Assembly: GCF_012726345.1 (NCBI RefSeq)
Contig: NZ_PTXN01000003.1
Coordinates: 40,996 to 104,995, forward strand
Length of the DNA stretch: 64,000 nt
Source of the DNA: Marinomonas sp. UCMA 3892
Lineage (GTDB): Bacteria; Pseudomonadota; Gammaproteobacteria; Pseudomonadales; Marinomonadaceae
Direction: 5' to 3'
Part shown: one piece after another, positions 8,438 through 21,420 of the stretch
Position numbering within the stretch: the stretch's first letter is position 1
How the letters are laid out: the number at the start of each line of letters is the position of its first letter
Notes under the pieces: generated by a model
Database searches by the model: none
What the model was told of the DNA's origin: nothing
Seen by the model: only the letters and a program-made list of their open reading frames with translations
Position numbers and translations under genes: made by a program

Positions 8438-9459
8438 AAGCGCCCCCGTTGCAATAGGTACAAGAAGGTTGGCACCCCAAGCAACGCGGTGATGACGCCT
8501 ACAGGCAGTTGCTCTGGGGCAATAACGGTACGTGCCAAGGTATCTGCAAGTGTTACCAAACAACCGCCAGCTAGAGCACTCGCGGGCAGAATCAGTCGCT
8601 GGTCATTGCCCAGAACCATACGCAGCATGTGTGGAATAACCAAACCAACAAAACCAACGCTACCAGCCGTTGTCACTGCAATCGCGGTCAGTAGACTGGC
8701 TAACAAAAAAACAAAGCGTTCGAGGCTTTTCACATTCACGCCAAGTGCCGCTGCTTGCAAAGGCCCACGAGCCAACACATTGAGGCTGCGCCCGAGTGGC
8801 ATTAAAATCAAGCAAGTCGGAACCAATACCAACCAAGCTAACCATGGCGTGCTGGCGTAGGATAAATCTCCCATCAACCAATACAACATACCAGGGATTT
8901 TATGGGGCGGCGCTAGGGCCAACATAAGTGTAATCAACGCCCCCCAACCTGCAGCAATCACCACGCCAGTTAATAACAACCGCATAGTCGCCGTATTACC
9001 CAAGCGAGCAGATAAACCAAATACCAATAAAGTAGATAAAACTGCGCCGAGAAACGCCATGCCTGACATCAAAACCCCACTGATTCCAAGCAAAATCGCC
9101 GCCAGCGCTGCCACGGATGCGCCACCTGAAATCCCCAATACATAAGGATCTGCCAATGGGTTCCGAAGGAGGATCTGCATCAACGCTCCCGCCACGGCCA
9201 ACAAACCGCCCGTAGCAAACGCCGCCATAACACGAGGCAAGCGCAGCTCTAATACGAGAGTTTGATTAAGACCCGAGCCTTGCCCAAGCAAAGCCTGCCA
9301 AACAGCGTAAGGCGATAAGTTGACGCTGCCTTGGGTGATCGCAAACACGACACTAAGCATCGACACACACATTAATATCCCAAGCGGCAATATCAACGAG
9401 CGCCGGTTTGTCGGGTGGCGAGTCTTAACGTCGAGCACGGGCAATATCCAGTTTTTCAC
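8434..9459 (-). CDS. btuC: B12 ABC transporter permease (BtuC-like, FecCD family)
   Basis: 341 residues with about ten membrane helices. FecCD-family marks are GISGGASVAALAAI in the middle and TALLGVPTFLYLL at the C-terminus. It forms the inner-membrane channel for the substrate delivered by the periplasmic binding protein. Its start overlaps the end of the binding-protein gene by 35 bp and its stop overlaps the ATPase start, implying translational coupling. Confidence 0.88.
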   Translation of the reverse strand: MKNWILPVLDVKTRHPTNRRSLILPLGILMCVSMLSVVFAITQGSVNLSPYAVWQALLGQGSGLNQTLVLELRLPRVMAAFATGGLLAVAGALMQILLRNPLADPYVLGISGGASVAALAAILLGISGVLMSGMAFLGAVLSTLLVFGLSARLGNTATMRLLLTGVVIAAGWGALITLMLALAPPHKIPGMLYWLMGDLSYASTPWLAWLVLVPTCLILMPLGRSLNVLARGPLQAAALGVNVKSLERFVFLLASLLTAIAVTTAGSVGFVGLVIPHMLRMVLGNDQRLILPASALAGGCLVTLADTLARTVIAPEQLPVGVITALLGVPTFLYLLQRGRL

Positions 9460-10327
9460 AGAGTATTTGTGCGCCTTCTAATAATCGCGGCGTTGGACGC
9501 TGAATCAACGATGGCGGCACAAAAAACAGATTGCCTTTTTGCGTAGCTAACAAATCGGCAAACACTCGCCATTTTTCAAGCCAGTTGGCGTTTCGTTCGC
9601 CCATACCTCCTGCGATGATGGCTTCAGGATTTTTCAGTAATACCGCCTCTTGACTCAGACGAGGAATCAAACGCGGCGAATCCGCAAACACGTTATCGCC
9701 GCCACATAAGTCAACCACTTTGCTAATATAATGGCTGCCATTCATCGTCATTAGCGGTTCATCCCAAACTTGATAAAAGGTTTTGACCCGAGGGGCTTGT
9801 TTATAGCGTTCGTGCAAGACATCAATGCCAGTACGAAAGCGCTTTGCTTCTTCCTTGGCTCGTTTTGAGGTGCCAGCTAGTGCGCCCAAGTTGTCGATAT
9901 TACGAGCAATGTCTTCGAACTCATGGGGCTCTACGTAATATACTGGTAGACCCAAGCGTTCTAGTGTTTCGATTTGCTCGGTTGGATTACCGGTTCCCCA
10001 AGCCAGTATTAAATCGGGCTGTAGGCTGATCAAACGCTCTAAATCTAAGCGCGTATGACTGCCCACTGAGGTAACGCTTTTTGCGGCTTCTGGGTAATCA
10101 CTATAAGACACCACCGCAACCACATTATCCCCCGCGCCAGCAGCATAAATCAGCTCGGTGGCGCCAGGTGATAGCGCCGCGATGCGCATTGCCGCATGAT
10201 CAATACAGACATCTCGCCCGCGATCATCCACCACACAGATAGGATCAGCCAACGCGTTGGACACGAATGCCCAACCACTTAACAATAAAGCCGATATTGA
10301 CAACAAACTACGCATCGGGTTAACCAT
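9425..10327 (-). CDS. btuF: Periplasmic B12-binding protein (BtuF-like)
   Basis: 300 residues with an N-terminal signal peptide (hydrophobic 7-24, cleavage near ALA-DP). The mature part has the class III binding-protein pattern: RIAALSPGATELIYAAGAGD, LQPDLILAWGTGNP and LGLPVYYVEP. Its start codon shares one base with the btuB stop (TAATG). A second Met at residue 5 could be the start. Context and riboswitch point to cobalamin; the binding-protein family alone also covers siderophores. Confidence 0.88.
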   Translation of the reverse strand: MVNPMRSLLSISALLLSGWAFVSNALADPICVVDDRGRDVCIDHAAMRIAALSPGATELIYAAGAGDNVVAVVSYSDYPEAAKSVTSVGSHTRLDLERLISLQPDLILAWGTGNPTEQIETLERLGLPVYYVEPHEFEDIARNIDNLGALAGTSKRAKEEAKRFRTGIDVLHERYKQAPRVKTFYQVWDEPLMTMNGSHYISKVVDLCGGDNVFADSPRLIPRLSQEAVLLKNPEAIIAGGMGERNANWLEKWRVFADLLATQKGNLFFVPPSLIQRPTPRLLEGAQILCEKLDIARARR

Positions 10328-12120
10328 TAAAATGCCGAATAGTTAAGGGTTAAGAACACGCCACGACCCGGATTAAAGTAGCCTTTTGCCGTTTGGTACT
10401 CTTTATCAAGGGCGTTTTTGACACTAATTTCAGCGTTCCAATCAGCGGCAAAGTCATAGCTAGCACGCAAGTTCATCGTCACATAGCCCGCCAACGTTTC
10501 AGAGCTGCCCAATGTAGTCGCTCGGCCATCCGCTCCGATTAATGTCACACCAACCCGTCCTTTTTCAAATAGACGATCTGCACTTAAACGGGCACTGCGT
10601 TTGGCACGTTTAGGCAATTGAAAACCCGTATCGTCATCTTTTGCGTCTAGCCACGTTAATGCCGCTTTTAACTGCCATTGCTCTAATGTTAGGCCTGAAG
10701 ACAGCTCAACACCTTGGACTTTAGAATCCACATTGTAAGCCGCCCAAGACCCTGTGTAATTAGACCAGATAACCATATCGCCATAGGAGGCATCAAACAC
10801 CGCAGCGTCCCAGTACATATTGTCATAATCGGCACGAACACCCAGTTCAACAGTTTTAGATTTCGTCGCTTTAAGTGTTGGGTCACCACTGCTTGGATAG
10901 TATAAATCGTTAAACGTTGGCGCTTCGAAAGCGGTCCCGTAGCTTGCACGTAGAGTATGTATGCCATCAAGCTTGTAACCAACAGCCACACCGCCTGTCG
11001 TCGAATCACCATAAGCACTGTTATGATCTTGACGAATATTAAGTTGCAGGTGGGTTGCCCCAAAATCAAACTGAGACTGAGCAAACACCGCATTATTACT
11101 GCGATCAGGCGCTTGATAGCTGGTGACGTCTACTTTGTCTTCAGAGGTTTCAGCTCCCAACACAAACTCATGTTCACCTGCCGAAATAGTGTTGCTCCAA
11201 CGAGCAGTTTGAGTTTTAGTGTTGTACTTATCCTCTGAAGAAATGGTTTTGCTGTCGTTGCGAGTCTGAGACAATTTCAGCTCTGTATCCCAATCTTCCG
11301 TTACTGGAAGGCTGACGCTCAACCCGATCACCTGCACCTGGTAATCATTTTCGTCACCGACATAGTGATTTCGCCCTTCACTATTCATAATCAAACCACT
11401 GATGCGCGCACCACTGCTAAAATCATGTCCAACATTGAGCAATACATTTTCGTTGCGGTAGCCCTGAGCTCCCTCACCTTCTTTAACAATATCACCGTCG
11501 GTTTCAAACTTGCCTGCTGACAAAAGGTATTGCGTGTTATCGCTGGAACCAGACACGGTCGCATCGATAGTTTTTGTATTAAACGAGCCACCACCTACAG
11601 ATACATTCATGTGCGAATCATCATCGGCCTTTGGCAAAAACGCTTGAATCACGCCGCCTACCGCATCAGCGCCATACAAGGTAGCTTTAGGACCTCGAAC
11701 GATCTCTAGACGATCAATTAAAGATGTCGGAATATTTTCAAATGGCGCGCCACCTGATGTCGCAGAATACAAAGGAATACCATCGAGCAAAAACTTAGTA
11801 GATTCTGCACTCGCACCGCGCATATAAACACTAGTGGTCTTTCCGTAACCGCCATTCGAGCTGATATCTACACCCGGCTGCGCCGCTAGTAGCTCGCTTA
11901 TTTCTTGCGCTTGCTGAGCTTTGATTTCTTCACGATTGATGACCGTAACAGATGACAGCGAATCCGCCACACTGACCGAAGTAGATGTTGCCGTAACGAC
12001 CAAAGGTGATAAGGTCGACGATGAATCTGCTGTTGTCTCTGCGTGAGCCGAAACGGCGGACACAACACTAAACGCCACGAGGGTTCTCGTGAACGCTGGG
12101 GAAATACATTGAGTTTTCAT
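10327..12120 (-). CDS. btuB: TonB-dependent outer-membrane cobalamin receptor
   Basis: 597 residues from ATG 12120; a GTG nine codons upstream is less likely. A signal peptide (about 1-28) precedes a TonB-box-like stretch SPLVVTATS. The plug domain follows (INREEIKAQQAQEISELLAAQPG, RLEIVRGPKATLYGADAVGG), then a 22-strand-type barrel ending in a C-terminal Phe (LTLNYSAF). Size matches BtuB. First gene of the operon, directly behind a cobalamin riboswitch, which is the strongest evidence for B12 as ligand. Confidence 0.93.
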   Translation of the reverse strand: MKTQCISPAFTRTLVAFSVVSAVSAHAETTADSSSTLSPLVVTATSTSVSVADSLSSVTVINREEIKAQQAQEISELLAAQPGVDISSNGGYGKTTSVYMRGASAESTKFLLDGIPLYSATSGGAPFENIPTSLIDRLEIVRGPKATLYGADAVGGVIQAFLPKADDDSHMNVSVGGGSFNTKTIDATVSGSSDNTQYLLSAGKFETDGDIVKEGEGAQGYRNENVLLNVGHDFSSGARISGLIMNSEGRNHYVGDENDYQVQVIGLSVSLPVTEDWDTELKLSQTRNDSKTISSEDKYNTKTQTARWSNTISAGEHEFVLGAETSEDKVDVTSYQAPDRSNNAVFAQSQFDFGATHLQLNIRQDHNSAYGDSTTGGVAVGYKLDGIHTLRASYGTAFEAPTFNDLYYPSSGDPTLKATKSKTVELGVRADYDNMYWDAAVFDASYGDMVIWSNYTGSWAAYNVDSKVQGVELSSGLTLEQWQLKAALTWLDAKDDDTGFQLPKRAKRSARLSADRLFEKGRVGVTLIGADGRATTLGSSETLAGYVTMNLRASYDFAADWNAEISVKNALDKEYQTAKGYFNPGRGVFLTLNYSAF

Positions 12121-12184
12121 AATAAAGTCTACTGTTGCACTGAGCACGCCCGCACAGTGGTGACATTTGGTTCCAACTTACGCA

Positions 12185-12370
12185 GAACCCCCAGTTACAG
12201 GCAGGTCTCCGGACTCAAAAGTTGCAAACGCAGGCTTTGCCGCCTTCCCATGGTGAACCACAGTGGCTTGTTGGCAAAGTTTGACTTTTTTACCGTTGCG
12301 GGGGCAGCGTCAGAGTTGCACTGACTTCCCTATTATTGCTGACATCACGCCAGCAACCTATAACGGCGCG
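12185..12370 (-). promoter_or_regulatory. Cobalamin riboswitch
   Basis: Read on the minus strand, the leader shows a GGTTGCTGGCG entry, a GGGAA segment (around 12330), GCCACTG (around 12265), then GGGAAGGCGG and the B12 box AGTCCGGAGACCTGCCT (12215-12199). This is the order seen in AdoCbl riboswitches. It lies 65-80 bp before btuB and should turn off expression when B12 is abundant. Confidence 0.92.
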
Positions 12371-12470
12371 TACTCTAACATAAGGTTCCATCAGGGTCAG
12401 ATGAAAAAACTATCGTCTAAATTCAGTTTCCTTCAATTTGAATGGATAATCCGTTTGGCCTACTAAAAAG

Positions 12471-12790
12471 CTTCAACCCAGATTTAAATTTTCCCGTGAT
12501 ACTTTTGCGCTTATTTTTTCTTGTCCTCACCAATATTAAAGTGATGAGCAAGGTCTTTTTCGATACCTGATACTGAGTTACTGAAATAGTTATTATCCGA
12601 CAATGGCTCTTAAATATTAGCCAATGAGTGAATGCCTATCAGACTCTAATATTGGATTTGTAGGGAAAACGCATAATTCTGGCGTTTTCAGAACACTTTT
12701 ATATGTTTAAACAAGCCTACACTCCTGCACTAGCACGAATCTTATACAGATTTTCTTTCTTATGTCGTTTTGTGTTTAAAAAAAGAAGCA
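12471..12790. other. Intergenic region between the divergent B12 and serine-type operons
   Basis: No gene is supported here. It contains an 8-bp inverted repeat GAAAACGC/GCGTTTTC at 12665-12672 and 12682-12689 and otherwise AT-rich promoter-like DNA for the rightward fusion gene. Confidence 0.5.
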
Positions 12791-12888
12791 ATGCTCTGTT
12801 AGGATGCCTTCCATGGATCTAAGCATTATCTGTGGGTAAGACAGGGAGCCCTCTGTCTGGTTTTAGAAAAACCATAACGCCAGAGCAT
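12791..12888 (+). promoter_or_regulatory. Foldable multi-helix 5' leader, candidate cis-regulatory RNA
   Basis: An 8-bp closing helix pairs ATGCTCTG (12791-12798) with CAGAGCAT (12881-12888). Inside it are a weak arm GATGC/GCATT (12803-12807 with 12823-12827), an 8-bp tetraloop hairpin (12839-12846 with 12851-12858, loop AGCC) and a 6-bp triloop hairpin GGTTTT/AAAACC (12859-12873). The start codon of the fusion gene is 32 bases downstream. No known riboswitch consensus was recognised. The ligand, if any, is unknown. Confidence 0.4.
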
Positions 12889-12920
12889 ACGTATTTAACT
12901 ATCTTACAGGTAATGAAAAA

Positions 12921-15896
12921 ATGACATCTATTGAGCAACTCAAATCCGCTCGCGCCAGTGCGCTTTCTCTGACTCAAAATGGCGCCCCCCAAGCTACCAG
13001 TAACCAATTCTTCGGTGTGGGTCCCATTACGGATATGACTCAGAATGAAGTTGATGCACGTCTATTACGTTTCGAATTTGATGCTTGGATAGAAGAAAAC
13101 TACCCAAAATTAGACGATAAAGGCAATCGTATCGGTAGCTTTACCACGGCTGAAATCGGTCGTGGTATGCACCGTGGCTACCCAGCAGATAAAGTCTTAA
13201 ATGACATGATGCGTGAAATCCACCGTTACTTTGGCTTTCCTAAAGCGAACAGCATGGCGGTAGGTTTAGGTGGTGGTCACAGCGGTTTCACGGCTGCAGC
13301 GCTTCACCTGATGACAGCAAACGACCCATCTCAAATCGTATTTGTTGATACCCCTAAGCCCGAATCCGCTGAAGGTAAAGCGGGTGGTTTCTTCCGCCAA
13401 TCTTGGGGTACTCAGTTAACAGAGCTACAACGCTATGCAACTAACGGTGACGAAGGCCGTATTCTTTTCGCTGAAGGTGAAGGCAGTATCCCAAGTGCTA
13501 ACTTTCTGCTAGAAAAAGGCGTTAAATTATTCTTTGGTGTTGGCCATGAAACAACAGGAGCCACCACTTACACTGAACAAGAAATTGCAAATCTATTGGC
13601 TTGGGTTGACGCTAACCCGAAAGAGCACCATGCAGTAATCGATGCGACGTCCCTACTTGGCGCTATGCCTTGGGCGAAAGAGTTGGTTGATGGCGTACTA
13701 ACTAAGTGCAACCTATTCATGCCGTTTCAAAAAGCAATCGGAGGTATTTCTGGTTACTTCATCGTTTCTTTAACTAGACCAGCTTTAGCACGCATCAACG
13801 CCAACCAAAAAGATCCTTCTTGGGCGATTCCGCGTCAGCTTAAAATTGCAGTGCCACGCGATGCAAAAGAGCCTCTAAGCAGTGAAAAAACCACAGATCT
13901 TGGCCCTATCTACGATGCAGAAAAAGACCAGATGCTTGGTGGTATCATCAACACCTTCAGTACATTAGCATTTGCAGAAACAACTTTTGCGATCCTTCGC
14001 AACGAACGCATGATAGGCGATGTTTACGAACTTAACGCTCGTTCAGCCGCAAACCGTGATCTAGTAAACCAGTGGATTGAAAACAACGATCTATTCGAAC
14101 TAGGTGTATCTAATTCTGATTCTCGCGGTGCAGCGGTTACACTTCTTAAAGTCACTGACAAAGATATCACTGATGCTGACGTACACAATCGTATCATCGT
14201 GAAATCTAAGCAAATGCTAGGCTACGAAGGTATCACTCACACTGATGGTGCTCACGAGAAAGGTCTAGACGTAGCTCGCTATGTAAATGCTTTCCCAGGT
14301 TCTCCTGGTGACTACCGTGCTTGGATAGGTGGTATTCGTCCGGCACAAGACATCACTGCACTACTAGACAACATCCAGTACTGCTACCTACGTGCGAAAA
14401 ACGCTGTACTAGAAGAAATCCTAGCTGAGAAAGGTGAATCGTTCGAAAGTGCTGTTTCTGCAACAACCAAAGATGATGTTCGTATTGACGATGCAAACCG
14501 CGCTTACAAAGTGTTGATCGCTGACCTAGTGGGTATGATATTCGATGCAAAAGGTAATGCGGATTTCAGCCAAGTCGCAGCCTACATCAAGTCTAAAGGT
14601 GGTGAGTTTCACGTCGGCTCTATTACAGATGCCGGCGAGTTAGCGACAGGTAAAGTGCATTTTTTCTATCAGCCAAGCCTAAGCCGCGAAGACGAGCTTC
14701 TAGCTGAAACTGGCGAAGGTCAATACGACGCAGTTATTGCAGCGGCGACATTCTTCCCAGCAGAATCTAAATTCGAGCTAGGCGGCGTACGTATCGGTGC
14801 GGGTACTGGCAACATGGGTTCTGCTAGCTGGGGCGGCGGTAACGGTGAAGGTGGTGTTGCACCACTTATGAATACACCAAGTTTCAATTCTCGTGCCACA
14901 GCACAGGCCGCAATGAAAGCTCTACTTAAAGTACTTCCTGATTTACAAGTATCCACAATGCACGATCGTGTTGTTGCTGGAGACTTCGATACAGGTAAAA
15001 ACCTTGCGGAATTCCCAACAACTAAGCTTGAAGGTAAAAAACTGGCGGTTGTTGGTTACGGTAATATCGGTCGTGAAATGGCGAAACTAGGCGCTGCATT
15101 TGGCATGCAAGTTTCTGTCTATGCTCGTCCCGCTCACCAGAAATGGATTGAATCTGAAGGCTTTACTTACGCATCTAGCATTATTGAAGCAGCTCAAGAC
15201 GCAGATGTTCTTAGCCCACACACTGGCCTAGGCGCACTGAACTCCGACTCTGGTAAATTCAGTAACTCCGACATCATCAATGCAGACGTATTTTCGGCTA
15301 TGAAACATGGCGCGGTTTTGGTGAACTACGATCGTGGCGAAGTGGTTGACATCGAAGCGTTAGACGCGGCACTAACTAGTGGCCAAATCCGTTATGCCGC
15401 TATCGATGCTGATTTGTTTAAAGACCCAAATACTGGTGAACTATCTGGTCCAATGGTTCCTTACCGGAACATTTACGAAAAACACGTAGGGAAAATGGAG
15501 CTTCTACCACATGCGGCGGCAGACACTGAGCACGTATCTCGTGTAGAGGGAGCTAAGCAAGCGGTTGATCAAATCCTAAGCGTGATCCAATACGGTAAAG
15601 TGATTAACCTGAAAGGTGATTTACCTGAAGGCTTCACTAACGATGGCGCTAAAACAGTAAATGGCGTGGGTAAGGTAAACGCAAGTTCTGTTACAACACT
15701 ATCAGCTAAGCAAATTAAGCAGCTAGCTGACAGTGCAACACAAATTGCGGCATACTGGGGAGCAATCAACGCGACCGAAGATGCAGATAAACGTGCGGCA
15801 CTTGTTGCTGAGTACACGGAAATGATGGTATTGAACTCCAATATCTACACGACGTTACTTGCACAAAATGGCCTACAAGGTCCATTGGGTAACTAA
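12921..15896 (+). CDS. Fused class V aminotransferase (SerC-like) and D-2-hydroxyacid dehydrogenase (SerA-like)
   Basis: 991 residues. The N-terminal half (about 25-500) has a class V aminotransferase/SerC-like fold with HAVIDATS (Asp241, PLP ring) and FQKAIGG (Lys271, Schiff base). The C-terminal half (about 525-900) is a SerA/GyaR-like dehydrogenase. It shows VVGYGNIG (Rossmann, 711-717), DRG (Arg805), AAIDADLF (Asp829) and LPHAA (His864), so both active sites look complete. There is no ACT domain; a helical tail of about 90 residues follows. The residues after the second Rossmann strand (VYARPA) suggest NADP rather than NAD. With the next gene, a serine to hydroxypyruvate to glycerate route is plausible; phosphoserine synthesis is the alternative. 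ACAGG lies 10 bases before the ATG. Confidence 0.85.
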   Translation: MTSIEQLKSARASALSLTQNGAPQATSNQFFGVGPITDMTQNEVDARLLRFEFDAWIEENYPKLDDKGNRIGSFTTAEIGRGMHRGYPADKVLNDMMREIHRYFGFPKANSMAVGLGGGHSGFTAAALHLMTANDPSQIVFVDTPKPESAEGKAGGFFRQSWGTQLTELQRYATNGDEGRILFAEGEGSIPSANFLLEKGVKLFFGVGHETTGATTYTEQEIANLLAWVDANPKEHHAVIDATSLLGAMPWAKELVDGVLTKCNLFMPFQKAIGGISGYFIVSLTRPALARINANQKDPSWAIPRQLKIAVPRDAKEPLSSEKTTDLGPIYDAEKDQMLGGIINTFSTLAFAETTFAILRNERMIGDVYELNARSAANRDLVNQWIENNDLFELGVSNSDSRGAAVTLLKVTDKDITDADVHNRIIVKSKQMLGYEGITHTDGAHEKGLDVARYVNAFPGSPGDYRAWIGGIRPAQDITALLDNIQYCYLRAKNAVLEEILAEKGESFESAVSATTKDDVRIDDANRAYKVLIADLVGMIFDAKGNADFSQVAAYIKSKGGEFHVGSITDAGELATGKVHFFYQPSLSREDELLAETGEGQYDAVIAAATFFPAESKFELGGVRIGAGTGNMGSASWGGGNGEGGVAPLMNTPSFNSRATAQAAMKALLKVLPDLQVSTMHDRVVAGDFDTGKNLAEFPTTKLEGKKLAVVGYGNIGREMAKLGAAFGMQVSVYARPAHQKWIESEGFTYASSIIEAAQDADVLSPHTGLGALNSDSGKFSNSDIINADVFSAMKHGAVLVNYDRGEVVDIEALDAALTSGQIRYAAIDADLFKDPNTGELSGPMVPYRNIYEKHVGKMELLPHAAADTEHVSRVEGAKQAVDQILSVIQYGKVINLKGDLPEGFTNDGAKTVNGVGKVNASSVTTLSAKQIKQLADSATQIAAYWGAINATEDADKRAALVAEYTEMMVLNSNIYTTLLAQNGLQGPLGN

Positions 15897-15920
15897 GTAA
15901 AACCTTAATAGTTAGTCAAT

Positions 15921-15968
15921 AAACCGCATCAACGCCGTGACTTTGTCCTGTTGATGCGGTTTTTTTGT
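15921..15968 (+). terminator. Intrinsic terminator
   Basis: A 13-bp perfect stem (15921-15933 with 15950-15962, AAACCGCATCAAC) is followed by TTTTGTTT. It separates the fusion gene from the glycerate kinase gene, so downstream expression depends on read-through or a separate promoter. Confidence 0.85.
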
Positions 15969-16002
15969 TTCACGCCTAAGAGGCAAGCAAGGGAGAACAG
16001 GT

Positions 16003-17133
16003 TTGCATTCAAATGATAGAAATTCTGCCGTCACTATTTTTAACGCCGCGATCAATGCGGTGGCTGGCTACAATGCGACTTACCGTGCGGTAAACAGCTT
16101 TGCTGATTTTACACCAGACCAAATTATCGCGGTGGGTAAAGCCGCTAGCGGCATGTGTGCCGGAGCGTTAGCTGCACTTGGTAATGACTGCCCAGCCTTA
16201 TTGGTAACAAAATACGCTCATACAGACCAAGCAATGTGGGACGCAAATAATGTAACTGTTATCGAATCGGCACATCCCGTGCCAGATCAGAACTCTCTAA
16301 ACGCTGGAAAGCAGATGCTCGCCACAGTCAATAGTATGGAAGCAGGCAGCAAATTACTCCTATTAGTTTCTGGTGGCGCATCAGCTTTATCCGAAGCTCT
16401 GCCCGCTGACGTCAGCTTAGAAGACTGGCAAAAACTGACAAATCAAATGCTTGCGGCTGGTTATAACATTGATCAGATCAATACCCGTCGTAAAGAAACC
16501 TCTTTGATAAAAGACGGTAAGTTACTCGAAAACTTTACAGGTACTGACGTTCGCGTACTGGCTATTTCGGACGTAGAAGGCGATGACATTAGCGTAATCG
16601 GCTCTGGTACAGGATCTATTAAACGTTGTCCATCTACTGCCAGCGTTACCTTGATAGGCACGAACCAAGTCGCTCGAGAAGCAGCAGCAAACAAAGCAAC
16701 CGAGCTTGGTTATCACGTTATCGACAATAAAGAAAATCTGTATGACGATGTTGAAGTTCTGTCTTCTTATATTGGCCAGCAACTAATAAACGCCGAACCA
16801 GGCGTGTACATTTTCGGTGGAGAGCCAACGGTCAAACTGCCGGAAAATCCCGGCAACGGTGGCCGTAACCAAGCTCTCGCGCTAGGCATTGCAGAAAATA
16901 TCGTTGGTCGCGATAATATCTTGGTACTGGTTGCCGGCACAGACGGCAGTGATGGCCCAACTGATGCCGCTGGTGGCATCGTAGATGGTTCGACAGCAAA
17001 AGATCTGCACGCCGTACGCGATGCACTGAAACGTGCTGACGCCGGAACCTACTTGCGTGAACAGGATGCTATCTTTATTACTGGCCCCACTAATACCAAT
17101 GTCATGGATATTGTGGTTGCCATCCTCCACTAA
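16003..17133 (+). CDS. Glycerate kinase, MOFRL/DUF4147 type
   Basis: 376 residues. A TTG start at 16003 is supported by GGGAG 7 bases upstream; no in-frame ATG fits. Family marks are IIAVGKAASGMC, ESAHPVPDQNS, LLLVSGGASAL, ISDVEGDDISVIGSG and the C-terminal NGGRNQALALG with AGTDGSDGPTDAAGG. These enzymes phosphorylate D-glycerate, usually to 2-phosphoglycerate. Its place behind the transaminase/dehydrogenase fusion supports a glycerate-forming pathway that feeds lower glycolysis. Older annotations of this family as hydroxypyruvate reductase are misleading. Confidence 0.88.
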   Translation: MHSNDRNSAVTIFNAAINAVAGYNATYRAVNSFADFTPDQIIAVGKAASGMCAGALAALGNDCPALLVTKYAHTDQAMWDANNVTVIESAHPVPDQNSLNAGKQMLATVNSMEAGSKLLLLVSGGASALSEALPADVSLEDWQKLTNQMLAAGYNIDQINTRRKETSLIKDGKLLENFTGTDVRVLAISDVEGDDISVIGSGTGSIKRCPSTASVTLIGTNQVAREAAANKATELGYHVIDNKENLYDDVEVLSSYIGQQLINAEPGVYIFGGEPTVKLPENPGNGGRNQALALGIAENIVGRDNILVLVAGTDGSDGPTDAAGGIVDGSTAKDLHAVRDALKRADAGTYLREQDAIFITGPTNTNVMDIVVAILH

Positions 17134-17146
17134 ACCTTCAATATAA

Positions 17147-17177
17147 ACCACCAACTCAGAACATAAGGGTTGGTGGT
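17147..17177 (+). terminator. Hairpin after glycerate kinase
   Basis: A 9-bp stem ACCACCAAC/GTTGGTGGT at 17147-17155 and 17169-17177. It lacks a T-tract on the plus strand, so it is a weak terminator or an mRNA-stabilising 3' end. Confidence 0.45.
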
Positions 17178-17288
17178 AAAGACAAGCCTATCCACAAGCT
17201 TGATTTATCTTTGCTATATATAATCGTTTTTTAACGTCAGAGTCTTCTACACTTATATAGAGTCCAACAATAATATAGGAGGCTTGTT

Positions 17289-17702
17289 ATGTATCAAAGT
17301 ATCGCTATGCCCGTGGATTTATCTCATACAGATAAACTTGAGAAAGCGTTAAAAGTCACAGGGGACCTTGCTAAACTCTATTCTTCTAAGGTGTATCTTC
17401 TTGCTGTTACAGCATCTGCTCCTAGCAGTATCGCTCATAACCTTAAAGAATTTAAAGAAAGATTAGACAGTTATGCGAAAGCGCAAGAAGGCGAATTTGG
17501 CGTAATATTTGAGGCGGTTGTCATCCCCTGTGCTGATCCAGCAGCCGATATGGACAAATCACTCAATCATTGGCTCCATGGAAATCCAGTCGATCTCGTG
17601 GTCATGGCATCTCATGTGCCAAGCTTTAAAGACCATATTTTTCATTCACATGGTAGTTTTTTAGCGTCTCATACGGATAAATCAATATTGTTAGTACGCT
17701 AG
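17289..17702 (+). CDS. Universal stress protein, UspA family
   Basis: 137 residues with the Usp fold order: MYQSIAMPVDLSHTDKLEKA at the N-terminus, VDLVVMASHVPS in the middle and SFLASHTDKSILLVR at the end. The usual ATP-binding G-x2-G-x9-G(S/T) is not evident, so it may be a non-ATP-binding member. TAGGAGG upstream is a near-ideal ribosome site. It has its own promoter region of about 155 bp; a link to the glycerate genes is unproven. Confidence 0.85.
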   Translation: MYQSIAMPVDLSHTDKLEKALKVTGDLAKLYSSKVYLLAVTASAPSSIAHNLKEFKERLDSYAKAQEGEFGVIFEAVVIPCADPAADMDKSLNHWLHGNPVDLVVMASHVPSFKDHIFHSHGSFLASHTDKSILLVR

Positions 17703-17837
17703 ATTGAATCCTTGGGGGCACATCGACAGCCCCTCCTTTCAAGCAAGATTAACATCCCTATTATTTATAAGAGCTCTGGCTTCTTTTACTGCTAGAATGT
17801 CGCATTATTTATCCGCTAATACATGCAAAGGCAGGCT

Positions 17838-19766
17838 ATGACCGTTCTTCTGATGACCCCACCCATGACGCAACTGAATACGCCGTATCCAGCAACGGCG
17901 TATCTGACTGGCTTTTTGCGCTCTCGGGGCTATGAAGCGACGCAACGAGATCCGGCCATTGAGCTGTTCCTTGAGATGATGACTTCACCAGCTCTGGATA
18001 TTATTCGCCAGCATGTGGAAGAAAACTTCGAGTCATTTGAAGACGATGAACTACCCGATGCTATCTTTACCTTTTTAGCGGAATTTGATCGTTATCGCCT
18101 TTGTGTCGAACCAGTTATTCGCTTTTTACAAGGCAAAGATTCCAGTCTTGCTTTACGTATTGTCTCGCGTCGTTTTTTGCCAGAAGGCCCAGCGTTCGAC
18201 GCCATTGCCCAAATGGAAGCCGTGTCGGGCGATATTCTCAAAACCGCCTTTGGTCAGCTTGGCGTGCAAGACAAAGCCAAGTATTTAGCCACTTTGTTTA
18301 TCAATGATTTGTCAGCTGTGATCACGCAAGGCGTTGATCCGTATTTTGAAGTAAGTCGTTATGGTGAGCGTTTAGCCGCAGCCAACCCAAGTTTCGATGA
18401 TCTATACAATACACTGATGGGTGAGCCAAGCTTTAGCTCTGAGATTTTAGAGCAATTAGTCGAGCAATATCTGGAAGAAACTCAGCCAAGCGTGGTGGCA
18501 TTAACCGTGCCTTTTCCTGGCAATATGTTGGGTGCACTGCGAATTGCGCAAACTTGTAAAGACATTAATCCTGATCTGCCAGTCGTACTGGGTGGAGGGT
18601 TTGTGAACACTGAGCTGCGTGCCTTGCGTGACCCTCGAGTGTTCGAATTTGTCGATTTTATCTGTCTAGACGATGGCGAACGGCCTTTTATGACCTTGCT
18701 GGAATTCTTTGACGGCAAGCGAGAAATTGACGAGTTAGTACGTACTTACTTCCTAGCAGAAGACGAAAATGGTAAGTCTTACGTTCACTACAACGAAAAT
18801 GCAGAGTTGCATGACATTCCTCAAACCGATGTCGGTACGCCGATTTACGATGGCTTGCCGTTAACTGAATACTTATCCTTGTGTGAGATGCTCAACCCGA
18901 TGCACCGCATCTGGAGCGATGGCCGCTGGAACAAGTTGACCATTGCCCACGGTTGTTACTGGCGTAAGTGTAGCTTTTGTGATGTCACACTGGATTATAT
19001 CGACCGCTACGACGCTGCTGGTGCCGATATATTGGTGGACCGTATTGAAGAGTTGATCGCAGAAACAGGACAAACAGGTTTCCATTTTGTCGATGAAGCG
19101 GCTCCGCCAAAAGCCTTGTTTGCTTTAGCAAGACGTCTAATCGAACGCGGCGTGGTGATCAGCTGGTGGGGTAATATTCGTTTTGAAAAGACTTTTACGC
19201 CAGAGCGTTGTCAGTTGTTAGCAGATTCTGGCTGTATCGCCGTCAGTGGTGGTTTGGAAGTGGCGTCAGATCGATTACTCAAGCTGATGAAAAAAGGCGT
19301 CAGTGTCGAACAAGTGGCGCGTGTCACTAAAGCCTTCAGTGATGTGGGTATTCTGGTGCATTCTTATTTGATGTATGGCTTCCCAACACAGACCGAACAA
19401 GAAACCATTGATGCCCTAGAAATGGTACGTCAGATGATGGCGCAAGAATGCTTCCAATCTGCCTTCTGGCATAGATTCGCAGCCACAGCCCATAGTCCGA
19501 TTGGTATTAATCCAGAAGAATACGGCATTACGCTTGCTGAACGCCCTGATATTTTGTTCGCAGAAAACGACGTGGATTTCACCGACCCAACAGGGACAGA
19601 TCACGACATGCTGGGGGACGGATTGCGTAAAGCACTCTACAACTACATGCATGGTATAGGTTTTGATCAAACGATGGACTTCTGGTTTGATAAACCCGTT
19701 AAACGTACTTTGGTGAAAAAAGACCTGATATCCAAAGCCTTGAACGATCTGATTGTTAGTAGTTAA
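17838..19766 (+). CDS. B12-binding-domain radical SAM protein
   Basis: 642 residues from ATG 17838, preferred over 17823 because AAAGG lies 6 bases ahead. The N-terminal half carries a cobalamin-binding-like region (VVALTVPFPGNMLGALRIA, LPVVLGGGFVNTEL, FICLDDGERPF). The radical SAM core follows. The cluster motif reads HGCYWRKCSFCD, that is C-x4-C-x2-C rather than the common C-x3-C-x2-C. Later SAM-barrel segments are HFVDEAAPP, VSGGLEVASDRLL and YLMYGFPTQTEQE. The substrate is unknown; B12-radical SAM enzymes often methylate or rearrange unactivated carbons. It may form a transcription unit with the next gene, 115 bp away. Confidence 0.85.
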   Translation: MTVLLMTPPMTQLNTPYPATAYLTGFLRSRGYEATQRDPAIELFLEMMTSPALDIIRQHVEENFESFEDDELPDAIFTFLAEFDRYRLCVEPVIRFLQGKDSSLALRIVSRRFLPEGPAFDAIAQMEAVSGDILKTAFGQLGVQDKAKYLATLFINDLSAVITQGVDPYFEVSRYGERLAAANPSFDDLYNTLMGEPSFSSEILEQLVEQYLEETQPSVVALTVPFPGNMLGALRIAQTCKDINPDLPVVLGGGFVNTELRALRDPRVFEFVDFICLDDGERPFMTLLEFFDGKREIDELVRTYFLAEDENGKSYVHYNENAELHDIPQTDVGTPIYDGLPLTEYLSLCEMLNPMHRIWSDGRWNKLTIAHGCYWRKCSFCDVTLDYIDRYDAAGADILVDRIEELIAETGQTGFHFVDEAAPPKALFALARRLIERGVVISWWGNIRFEKTFTPERCQLLADSGCIAVSGGLEVASDRLLKLMKKGVSVEQVARVTKAFSDVGILVHSYLMYGFPTQTEQETIDALEMVRQMMAQECFQSAFWHRFAATAHSPIGINPEEYGITLAERPDILFAENDVDFTDPTGTDHDMLGDGLRKALYNYMHGIGFDQTMDFWFDKPVKRTLVKKDLISKALNDLIVSS

Positions 19767-19881
19767 CACTTCAAGTGGCCCATGTTCTGGTCATTTTTAG
19801 TATTTGTTTTTGGTGAACTCGTCTTCCAAACAATAGATTATTATACTATGCATCAACCCTCTACTTTGAGTCGTAAGTAAA

Positions 19882-21420
19882 ATGTCTTTTGATCAACAAC
19901 TTCAAGATGCGATTACTCTTTTTCAGCAACAAAATTATGATGCCGCCGAAGAGCGATTTACAGCGCTTGCGACTAGCTATCCAGATCAAGGTATTTGTCA
20001 GCTCTATTTGGCGCAGCTGGGTATTTTGAAAGGTAATGGGTCAAACCATATAGAAAGTTTGAACACCCTGCTGAACCTACTTCCCGCATTATCAGACGGT
20101 CATCACATTCTTGGTCAATGCTATCTACAATCGGGCAAACTACCAGATGCTGCTCGATCGTTTTATCAAGCATTAATGGCAAAGTGGTCAGGGGAACAGC
20201 CGATAAATTCAGTAGAGACTAAACATAGAACACCAAAGCCTAAGGCTATCAATTTTGATTCAGACATGGCACTTCAGTTACTTTGGCAAGTATTAGCTCA
20301 ATTTTATGCCGCGGGAATTTATGCCTTTCCAACCGCAGGAACTCTCCTAGGTCTTGAGCGATCTGGTGCATTACTGCCAAATGACAAAGACATTGATATC
20401 GGTGTTGATTGGATACAAATGTCTCAAGCCATCCAACTGCTTGAATCAAACGGCTGGGTTGAGTTCTCAAGATCTTACAATCTAATCAACCCACGCTGTT
20501 TTCGTCATTCATCTGGGTTAATTGTTGATCTATGTGGCTATGGAACTAACGAAGCAACAGGAGAAGCTATATCTGGATTATGGATGAAAGAGGTGCCCTT
20601 TGATTGGAATCGCATTACCTATTTTCCTGCTATATCTCTGTTGTCTAAAGTATCTCCTGCAGGGCCAATTTATTATTTAACATCACCTGAATCTATCTTG
20701 GAGTCGCTCTATGGCCCAAATTGGAAGCAGGAAGACCCGTATTTCGATACCATTGTATGTGCTTATAATCTTAAAGGCCTCTCTTGGTTGCATCGCTGTT
20801 ATGCTTATTCACGTCTTTATGAACATTGGCGTAACAGCAATATCGAGCCTTGCAAACGCATACTCGACTCTTTAACGACCAAGCTGCCGCAGGATATTTT
20901 TTTAAAAAAGCTTGCGAATCACATATCAAGTATCAATAACCCTAAAATCAGCGAGCGCAAAAAGCGGGTGCTTGCTCTTGGGTATTTTGATCTCTTCCAT
21001 ATAGGTCACCTAAATTATCTACGCTATGCAAAATCCAAAGGTGAGCAATTAATCGTTGGGGTCGCACCTGACAGCTTCTCTTTATTGAGTAAAGGGTATG
21101 GACCAATTCAAACAGAAATAGAACGAAAAACATTGATAGAAAATCTAGCAGAAGTTGATGATGCGCAATTGGTTCTCGCTCGGATGGATGATACAGAAAA
21201 CGCAGCAACATGGATTAAAAGTCTTGATATAGATACCGTCGTATGCGGTGAAGAATGGCAAGGTTCATCTCGTTGGCAAAAGCTCGAAGCCATACTTAAT
21301 TCGATGCAAATTACTGTTCTCTACGCACCAAAAACTCAGGAAATATCCACGACTATACTGAAAAAACGCATGCATCAAAACTATTATGAATCAATGCATA
21401 CACCAAAGCCGGACCATTAA
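19882..21420 (+). CDS. Three-domain protein: TPR, LicD/fukutin-like transferase, cytidylyltransferase
   Basis: 512 residues. Residues 1-105 form about three TPR units (YDAAEERFTALATSYPD, SDGHHILGQCYLQSGKLPDA). Residues 125-350 resemble LicD/fukutin-type phosphoalcohol transferases, with TAGTLLGLERSGALLPND and the acidic cluster DKDIDIGVD at 168-176. Residues 362-497 are a TagD/GCT-like cytidylyltransferase with GYFDLFHIGHLNYLR (HIGH at 373-376) and ISTTILKKRM. The cytidylyltransferase could make a CDP-alcohol and the LicD-like domain could transfer the phosphoalcohol to a glycan or protein. The alcohol (glycerol, choline, ribitol or other) is unknown. No signal peptide, so cytoplasmic. Confidence 0.8.
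   Translation: MSFDQQLQDAITLFQQQNYDAAEERFTALATSYPDQGICQLYLAQLGILKGNGSNHIESLNTLLNLLPALSDGHHILGQCYLQSGKLPDAARSFYQALMAKWSGEQPINSVETKHRTPKPKAINFDSDMALQLLWQVLAQFYAAGIYAFPTAGTLLGLERSGALLPNDKDIDIGVDWIQMSQAIQLLESNGWVEFSRSYNLINPRCFRHSSGLIVDLCGYGTNEATGEAISGLWMKEVPFDWNRITYFPAISLLSKVSPAGPIYYLTSPESILESLYGPNWKQEDPYFDTIVCAYNLKGLSWLHRCYAYSRLYEHWRNSNIEPCKRILDSLTTKLPQDIFLKKLANHISSINNPKISERKKRVLALGYFDLFHIGHLNYLRYAKSKGEQLIVGVAPDSFSLLSKGYGPIQTEIERKTLIENLAEVDDAQLVLARMDDTENAATWIKSLDIDTVVCGEEWQGSSRWQKLEAILNSMQITVLYAPKTQEISTTILKKRMHQNYYESMHTPKPDH

Follow-up and report, generated by a model that had tools for sequence, protein, structure and literature searches.

Which reactions are catalyzed by an aminotransferase and a 2-hydroxyacid dehydrogenase (2HADH) that are fused in one polypeptide and encoded next to a glycerate kinase? 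The question is raised by a 64,000-nucleotide stretch of DNA from Marinomonas sp. UCMA 3892 (contig NZ_PTXN01000003.1, positions 40,996 to 104,995 of the forward strand), which we refer to as the window. Judging from sequence comparisons, we favor, with a probability of about 0.6, the reading that these two genes together specify a compact catabolic pathway from serine, or a near relative, through hydroxypyruvate and D-glycerate to 2-phosphoglycerate. The N-terminal aminotransferase, dependent on pyridoxal phosphate (PLP), would move the amino group from L-serine, or a closely related compound, onto a keto acid, leaving hydroxypyruvate; the C-terminal half would convert hydroxypyruvate to D-glycerate, probably with NADPH; and the class II kinase would turn D-glycerate into 2-phosphoglycerate, which could enter glycolysis or gluconeogenesis. 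We infer the substrate, the direction, the cofactor and any hand-over of hydroxypyruvate between the two halves.

Table 1. Features of the fusion-kinase locus, in window coordinates
Feature	Position	Strand	Description
Aminotransferase-dehydrogenase fusion	12921-15896	+	Open reading frame (ORF), ATG start, 991 aa
Aminotransferase half, residues 1-505	12921-14435	+	Divergent SerC-like class V aminotransferase; Lys271, Asp241, His84-Arg85, Arg466
Dehydrogenase half, residues about 528-898	14502-15614	+	Predicted D-2-hydroxyacid dehydrogenase; Arg805, His864; without SerA phosphate Arg; Ala-Arg replaces NAD Asp
C-terminal tail, residues 899-991	15615-15896	+	Mainly helices in structure model
Terminator-like hairpin with T-run	15924-15966	+	Read and folded; within the 106 nt fusion-kinase gap
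Class II (DUF4147/MOFRL) glycerate kinase, short form	16003-17133	+	376 aa, TTG start

The fused protein and its two halves

The original prediction, made from the letters of the window, described a 991-residue fusion followed by a glycerate kinase. Both ORFs are open where it had placed them, and Lys271, Asp241, GYGNIG at 712-717, Arg805, Asp829 and His864 are found at the residue numbers it gave. It was also right about the ACT domain, which does not appear among the Pfam matches to the fusion protein at E ≤ 1. Twelve other genomes of the genus encode the full-length protein at 90-93% identity, and other classes have it at about 60% identity; the frame is therefore neither a chance ORF nor a sequencing artefact. 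Structure models of the fusion (mean predicted local distance difference test score 61.8, 13 sequences) and of the aminotransferase half (68.2, 10 sequences) are too weak for judging the domain interface or channelling, and we took the folds alone from them.

Neither the aminotransferase half nor the corresponding halves of relatives (3/3) gave a Pfam Aminotran_5 match at E ≤ 1. One NCBIfam SerC model matched the half at 8e-15 with 55 bits and a second with 39 bits, short of the curated cut-offs of 477 and 448, respectively. In a profile-profile comparison (hhalign) it aligned with seven SerC-type proteins of related genomes over 360 columns (probability 96.6, E 5e-10). The modelled half resembled AGXT and SerC structures equally, rows within 1 Z being treated as tied (5f9s: Z 23.9, root-mean-square deviation 6.0, 347 aligned; 2fyf: Z 23.4, deviation 3.6, 337 aligned). 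Because of the weak NCBIfam matches, the hhalign match and the modelled fold, we assign this half to the class V aminotransferases; it has both the PLP Lys and Asp and the SerC-type fold of that class. Lys271, Asp241, His84, Arg85 and Arg466 were invariant in 17/17 aminotransferase halves. A PDB sequence search with the aminotransferase profile returned three matches with E values of 0.2 to 0.8, all of them unrelated.

The homology with SerC (serC_2 or PRK03080 type) extends across the whole half, and the PLP Lys and Asp, the His-Arg of the SHR motif and the carboxylate Arg all align. Apart from its low score, the half differs from SerC in having extra segments and in being joined to a dehydrogenase. 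SerC has two His-Arg pairs, which we take to be the phosphate-binding residues of the E. coli enzyme. The first is kept (His84-Arg85, 17/17), and the second, near the SerC C-terminus, lies in an unaligned insertion and so has no aligned counterpart.

No stand-alone aminotransferase half was found among 36 matching plasmid records, whole genomes not having been searched for lone halves. Thirty-one of these records cover the aminotransferase half and go with 31 full-length fusions, two match over 57 aa only, and three are from Ensifer. The one Ensifer record of the three that was read, an Ensifer adhaerens plasmid sequence annotated as a hypothetical protein (L099:7998-9746), is a relative of the fusion whose frame closes at a stop after residue 585. 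The remainder of the dehydrogenase did not turn up in the 17.5 kb of DNA examined there.

The dehydrogenase half matched PF02826 with 99 bits (cut-off 25.1) and six SerA proteins with a probability of 99.7 and an E value of 1.2e-25 (hhalign), and its best structure matches had Z scores of about 19 to 20. We read residue columns from hhalign and from three MAFFT settings for 26 dehydrogenases, 12 fused (one clipped at a contig end) and 14 lone, and compared them with the six SerA proteins. Arg805 and His864 were identical in all 26; with GYGNIG in the window protein, the half thus has the GXGXXG motif, the catalytic Arg and the catalytic His of a 2HADH. The triad Glu that pairs with the His is not conserved: the column of SerA E269 is occupied by Lys834 and, across the 26 enzymes, by K (14), R (4), S (3), Q (2), V (1), A (1) and E (1). 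Asp829, which had been put forward as a catalytic residue, is invariant and aligns with SerA D264, five positions from the triad Glu column, and not with the triad acid. Sections 8 and 9 of PMC6303947 describe a 2HADH residue, Asp254, that touches the pyridine ring of the cofactor, and by the five-residue spacing from the triad Glu we provisionally equate Asp829 with it. Asp831, also invariant in 26/26, might substitute for the catalytic Glu.

Two further columns bear on substrate and cofactor. In the SERA subfamily of 2HADH enzymes, an Arg-Ser motif with an invariant Arg binds phosphate (PMC6303947, section 22) and an Asp sets the preference for NAD (sections 8 and 22). The motif (Arg60-Ser61) is kept in 6/6 SerA proteins; in 26/26 dehydrogenases it is replaced by Ala (22) or Val (4) followed by Ala, in hhalign and in all three MAFFT settings. 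The NAD Asp column holds Ala735, followed by Arg736 in 24/26 enzymes, the exceptions being two lone SAR324 enzymes (L068 and L069). hhalign and one MAFFT setting agree on this column; with the two remaining settings it lies three residues away, and none of the 26 has an Asp there either way. Our guess for this half would favor an unphosphorylated substrate and NADP(H). A PdxB-type role in vitamin B6 metabolism was considered and appears unlikely, since PDXB has a SERA-like Arg-Ser motif (PMC6303947, section 22), which the fusion dehydrogenase lacks.

Among known enzymes, SerA shares with this half the fold and the catalytic Arg and His, and differs from it in the ACT domain, the Arg-Ser motif, the NAD Asp and the triad Glu. 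The GHRA and GHRB glyoxylate/hydroxypyruvate reductases also share the 2HADH fold. The NADP(H)-type beta-B/alpha-D loop that PMC6303947 describes as usual in GHRA is also predicted in the fusion dehydrogenase, but the GHRA motif [ST]R[ST]X[RK] is absent. Low scores (52.5 bits versus 492 for GhrB), the long C-terminal tail and the aminotransferase partner further set the half apart from these reductases. This tail is recognizable in most lone dehydrogenases and absent from a Pseudochrobactrum enzyme.

Linkage to a class II glycerate kinase

The DUF4147 and MOFRL domains of the kinase exceeded their Pfam cut-offs (157 bits versus 23 and 102.5 versus 28.3, respectively), and two NCBIfam glycerate 2-kinase equivalog models matched it below cut-off (175/550 and 157/670). 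The closest solved structure, 2b8n (E 6.4e-54), is named "glycerate kinase, putative", and the window kinase is about 33% identical to the longer MOFRL kinases. By its domains it is a class II (MOFRL) glycerate kinase, with predicted activity on D-glycerate. Passages of PMC2063504 state that the class II glycerate kinases characterized up to 2007 all yield 2-phosphoglycerate, and that animals use the class in gluconeogenesis from serine and methylotrophs in their serine pathway.

The fusion is an accessory gene, present in 13/48 genomes of the genus. In 13/13 of these a short MOFRL kinase (open frame of 380-395 aa) lies directly downstream on the same strand. The short kinase occurs in 0/35 genus genomes without the fusion; eight of them carry a single MOFRL kinase of greater length (422-462 aa) and 27 lack one altogether (Fisher 5e-12 for the association, among related genomes). 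The only MOFRL kinase of the window's own genome is the one beside the fusion. The pair is kept in 14/14 Oceanospirillales loci, a count that includes the window and many of the genomes of the genus count. The window's neighboring genes recur only in L051 and L053; the pair therefore stays while its flanks change. A terminator-like hairpin in the gap recurs in 11/11 aligned loci of the Marinomonas clade (window included; the window hairpin alone was folded). L063 and L066 have a different hairpin, and none was seen in L058. In L063 (AP025283.1, Aliamphritea spongicola) the fusion and the kinase are each split into several frames and the match to SerC is likewise broken up, into three pieces, which suggests assembly base-calling indels and not true pseudogenes.

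Beyond the genus, eight of 398 genomes sampled from the phylum gave a match at E ≤ 1e-60. Four have the full fusion (the window's genome included) and four a lone dehydrogenase; one of the four full-fusion genomes has a lone dehydrogenase too. Relatives at 90-93% identity come from Marinomonas and Maribrevibacterium, and full-length relatives at 61-80% from metagenome-assembled genomes (MAGs) of SAR324, Alphaproteobacteria and Oceanospirillaceae. On plasmids, 31 records cover 80% or more of the query at a single site with about 60% identity, and the 30 listed are from Rhizobium, Sinorhizobium, Shinella and Paracoccus.

The three steps proposed here, and the kinase class, have counterparts in the methylotroph serine pathway (serine-glyoxylate aminotransferase, hydroxypyruvate reductase and glycerate 2-kinase), as outlined in PMC2063504. 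What is new is the fusion; we found no description of such a fusion in a search of open-access literature by titles and the starts of abstracts, with most subscription journals outside its scope. In methylotrophs, separate enzymes catalyze the first two steps and the serine-glyoxylate aminotransferase is AGXT-like; in the window a single polypeptide, whose aminotransferase derives from SerC, would cover both.

The same half-reactions are reversible in principle and the genes do not show direction, so that the pair could also be read as non-phosphorylated serine synthesis, from glycerate through hydroxypyruvate to serine. We consider this very improbable. A kinase that drains glycerate works against serine synthesis, and almost all oxidizing 2HADH enzymes use NAD+ (PMC6303947, section 6), whereas the pocket of the fusion appears to be of the NADP(H) type.

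Lone dehydrogenases and the SAR324 loci

The dehydrogenase also occurs without the aminotransferase half, and a link to amino-group removal or glycerate phosphorylation was seen in 8/14 such lone loci; it is not universal. On a Pseudochrobactrum algeriensis plasmid, one 819-aa ORF (L091:9995-12454) consists of the dehydrogenase and a complete DUF4147-MOFRL kinase, of which the record annotates only the kinase end (11150-12454). In near-identical operons of Aminobacter and Paracoccus versutus (L093 and L094) a MOFRL kinase follows directly after the dehydrogenase (Pfam on L093). A DAO-type oxidase dependent on flavin adenine dinucleotide lies directly upstream of the dehydrogenase in L084, L092 and L095, and the L095 cluster also contains a RidA gene. 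The 426-aa neighbor in L092, considered as a kinase, is the DAO-type oxidase. L067 was rejected as a lone locus; its contig starts inside the aminotransferase half.

In the two SAR324 loci with a lone dehydrogenase, an aminotransferase of another kind is encoded upstream. In L069 its gene ends 31 nt upstream of the lone dehydrogenase, and the contig of L068 starts with the last 17 residues of the same enzyme. An aminotransferase 86% identical to that of L069 sits 57 nt upstream of a complete fusion in L062, and its PDB matches are 3-hydroxykynurenine, alanine-glyoxylate and serine-pyruvate aminotransferases (best E 6e-26). Such an AGXT-type gene was not found within 8 kb on each side of the L065 fusion or in the 124 nt examined upstream of L061. 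In a tree of the dehydrogenases, L068 and L069 cluster with the fused SAR324 rows at 100/100, within a larger starred group of fused enzymes. The tree includes the SAR324 fusions L061 and L065, not L062; L070, which starts inside the dehydrogenase, was left out; and the outgroup branch is very long, so that the root is unsure. The grouping into fused and lone enzymes takes three changes (at least two by starred branches). The simplest story, drawn from a few MAG contigs, would be that the SAR324 lone dehydrogenases lost their SerC-like domain in a setting that already offered a serine/alanine-type aminotransferase, and such a loss points to an unphosphorylated amino acid.

A gene for a protein of 472-473 aa lies 54-57 nt after the fusion in 3/3 fused SAR324 loci (L061:3152-4570, L062:4412-5830 and L065:11028-12449). 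Two of these proteins gave no Pfam (E ≤ 1) or NCBIfam (E ≤ 1e-5) match, and one gave no PDB match below E 0.9. They carry the motifs HNEVKPANV and FDFDN, which we presume to be kinase-like, and the protein could be an unrelated kinase serving the same route.

On two Shinella plasmids (L096:9974-11422 and L097:9974-11422), the lone dehydrogenase is found in yet another setting, with a P1-family peptidase, a small ORF and a polyamine-type ATP-binding cassette (ABC) transporter as neighbors.

Weighing the proposed route

The original prediction had reasoned that the fusion would be biosynthetic if separate serA and serC genes were missing and the protein acted only on phosphorylated intermediates. 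A genome search found SerC (511 bits, cut-off 253) encoded apart from the fusion, SerA (559 bits, cut-off 404 for NF008759; below cut-off with the phosphoglycerate dehydrogenase model, 270/454 bits) and SerB (221 bits, cut-off 144). With all three present that argument falls away, and the fusion does not replace serA and serC in this genome. Across 22 fusion genomes, the SerC model matched 21, above cut-off in 18. The three genomes below cut-off belong to one other family, probably Rhizobiaceae, and their SerC-like gene adjoins SerA; the remaining genome, a MAG (G443), had no SerC match. The phosphoglycerate dehydrogenase model matched 22/22 at E ≤ 1e-60, above cut-off in four; the best SerA matches of G445 (214 bits) and G446 (207 bits) are ambiguous.

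Several observations weigh against the catabolic route. The top NCBIfam family of the dehydrogenase half is phosphoglycerate dehydrogenase, far under cut-off, Asn656 matches an Asn conserved in the six SerA proteins, and His84-Arg85 matches the SerC SHR motif, which presumably helps bind phosphate. Since the triad Glu is not conserved, we regard this half as a predicted dehydrogenase only. The genomes behind the fusion-kinase association are kin, and the terminator-like hairpin parts the two genes. No ORF resembling the window kinase was found in the flanking DNA of 11/11 fused loci of Alphaproteobacteria (8) and SAR324 (3), L060 and L061 being on short contigs; four of the fused alphaproteobacterial genomes have a longer MOFRL kinase elsewhere, and the three SAR324 genomes have no MOFRL kinase anywhere. 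Finally, no amino-group-removing enzyme or glycerate kinase adjoins the lone dehydrogenase in L082, L083, L085, L086, L096 and L097 (the first four judged by eye).

The first of these points suit a biosynthetic SerCA fusion, which would take 3-phosphoglycerate through phosphohydroxypyruvate to phosphoserine in one polypeptide as a second copy of the pathway. Family models place both halves nearest SerC and SerA, and residues of both enzymes are retained. We judge it quite improbable all the same: the SerA Arg-Ser motif and NAD Asp are missing in 26/26 dehydrogenases, separate SerA- and SerC-type matches accompany the fusion as described above, and the linkage to a kinase would be left unexplained. 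Compared with SerCA, the non-phosphorylated catabolic reading is better supported.

The loci without an adjacent kinase fit a second alternative, in which the same two-step chemistry, from an amino acid through a 2-keto acid to a D-2-hydroxy acid, would act on an amino acid other than serine, and the kinase would act on another glycerate-like acid or be linked for a different reason. The residues do not reveal the substrate, and lone dehydrogenases lie in varied catabolic operons with GMC or DAO oxidases, HpaI-type or class II aldolases and aldehyde dehydrogenases. On the other hand, the recurrent partner belongs to the glycerate kinase class, whose characterized members are described as glycerate-specific in a passage of PMC2063504. 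We consider this alternative unlikely.

The serine route put forward in the original prediction is thus favored by the separate SerA, SerC and SerB, the kinase linkage in the genus and the Oceanospirillales, the dehydrogenases that elsewhere are fused to or followed by a MOFRL kinase, the lost SerA phosphate Arg and NAD Asp and the AGXT-type gene ahead of a lone SAR324 dehydrogenase, while no such kinase was found beside the alphaproteobacterial and SAR324 fusions. If this route is correct, two proteins would take serine carbon to 2-phosphoglycerate. The amino group would be handed on, in contrast to its release by serine dehydratase, and hydroxypyruvate, which is reactive, would be kept in one polypeptide. 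The route would also give meaning to the large proteins of rhizobial and Paracoccus plasmids that are named only "NAD(P)-dependent oxidoreductase", and it would bring in a dehydrogenase subfamily that lacks the classical catalytic Glu. Engineered serine cycles could take up the fusion as it stands.

A broader proposal is tentative, and we hold it to be doubtful: the fusion may be a portable bifunctional serine:keto-acid aminotransferase and NADPH-hydroxypyruvate reductase in which hydroxypyruvate goes from one half to the other. The dehydrogenase would form a new 2HADH subfamily with Asp831 in place of the catalytic Glu, the aminotransferase would be exchangeable (a SerC-like domain or a separate gene of the AGXT type), and the unrecognized kinase-like protein encoded directly downstream in SAR324 would take the place of the MOFRL kinase there. 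The kinase missing at 11/11 non-Oceanospirillales fused loci slightly lowers the odds of such a portable enzyme.

Around the pair, the window contains a Usp-family protein after the kinase (17289-17702, +) and a 512-aa ORF (19882-21420, +), both unmatched in the 13 related loci compared. An Rfam scan of positions 9000-20000 (E ≤ 1) revealed no RNA element ahead of the fusion, whose 5' region shows only patchy similarity among relatives. The only Rfam match in that interval is a cobalamin riboswitch (12183-12376, minus strand, 122 bits). It precedes a minus-strand cluster running from 12147 to 7664, in which genes for a TonB-type receptor and an ABC importer were recognized by eye.

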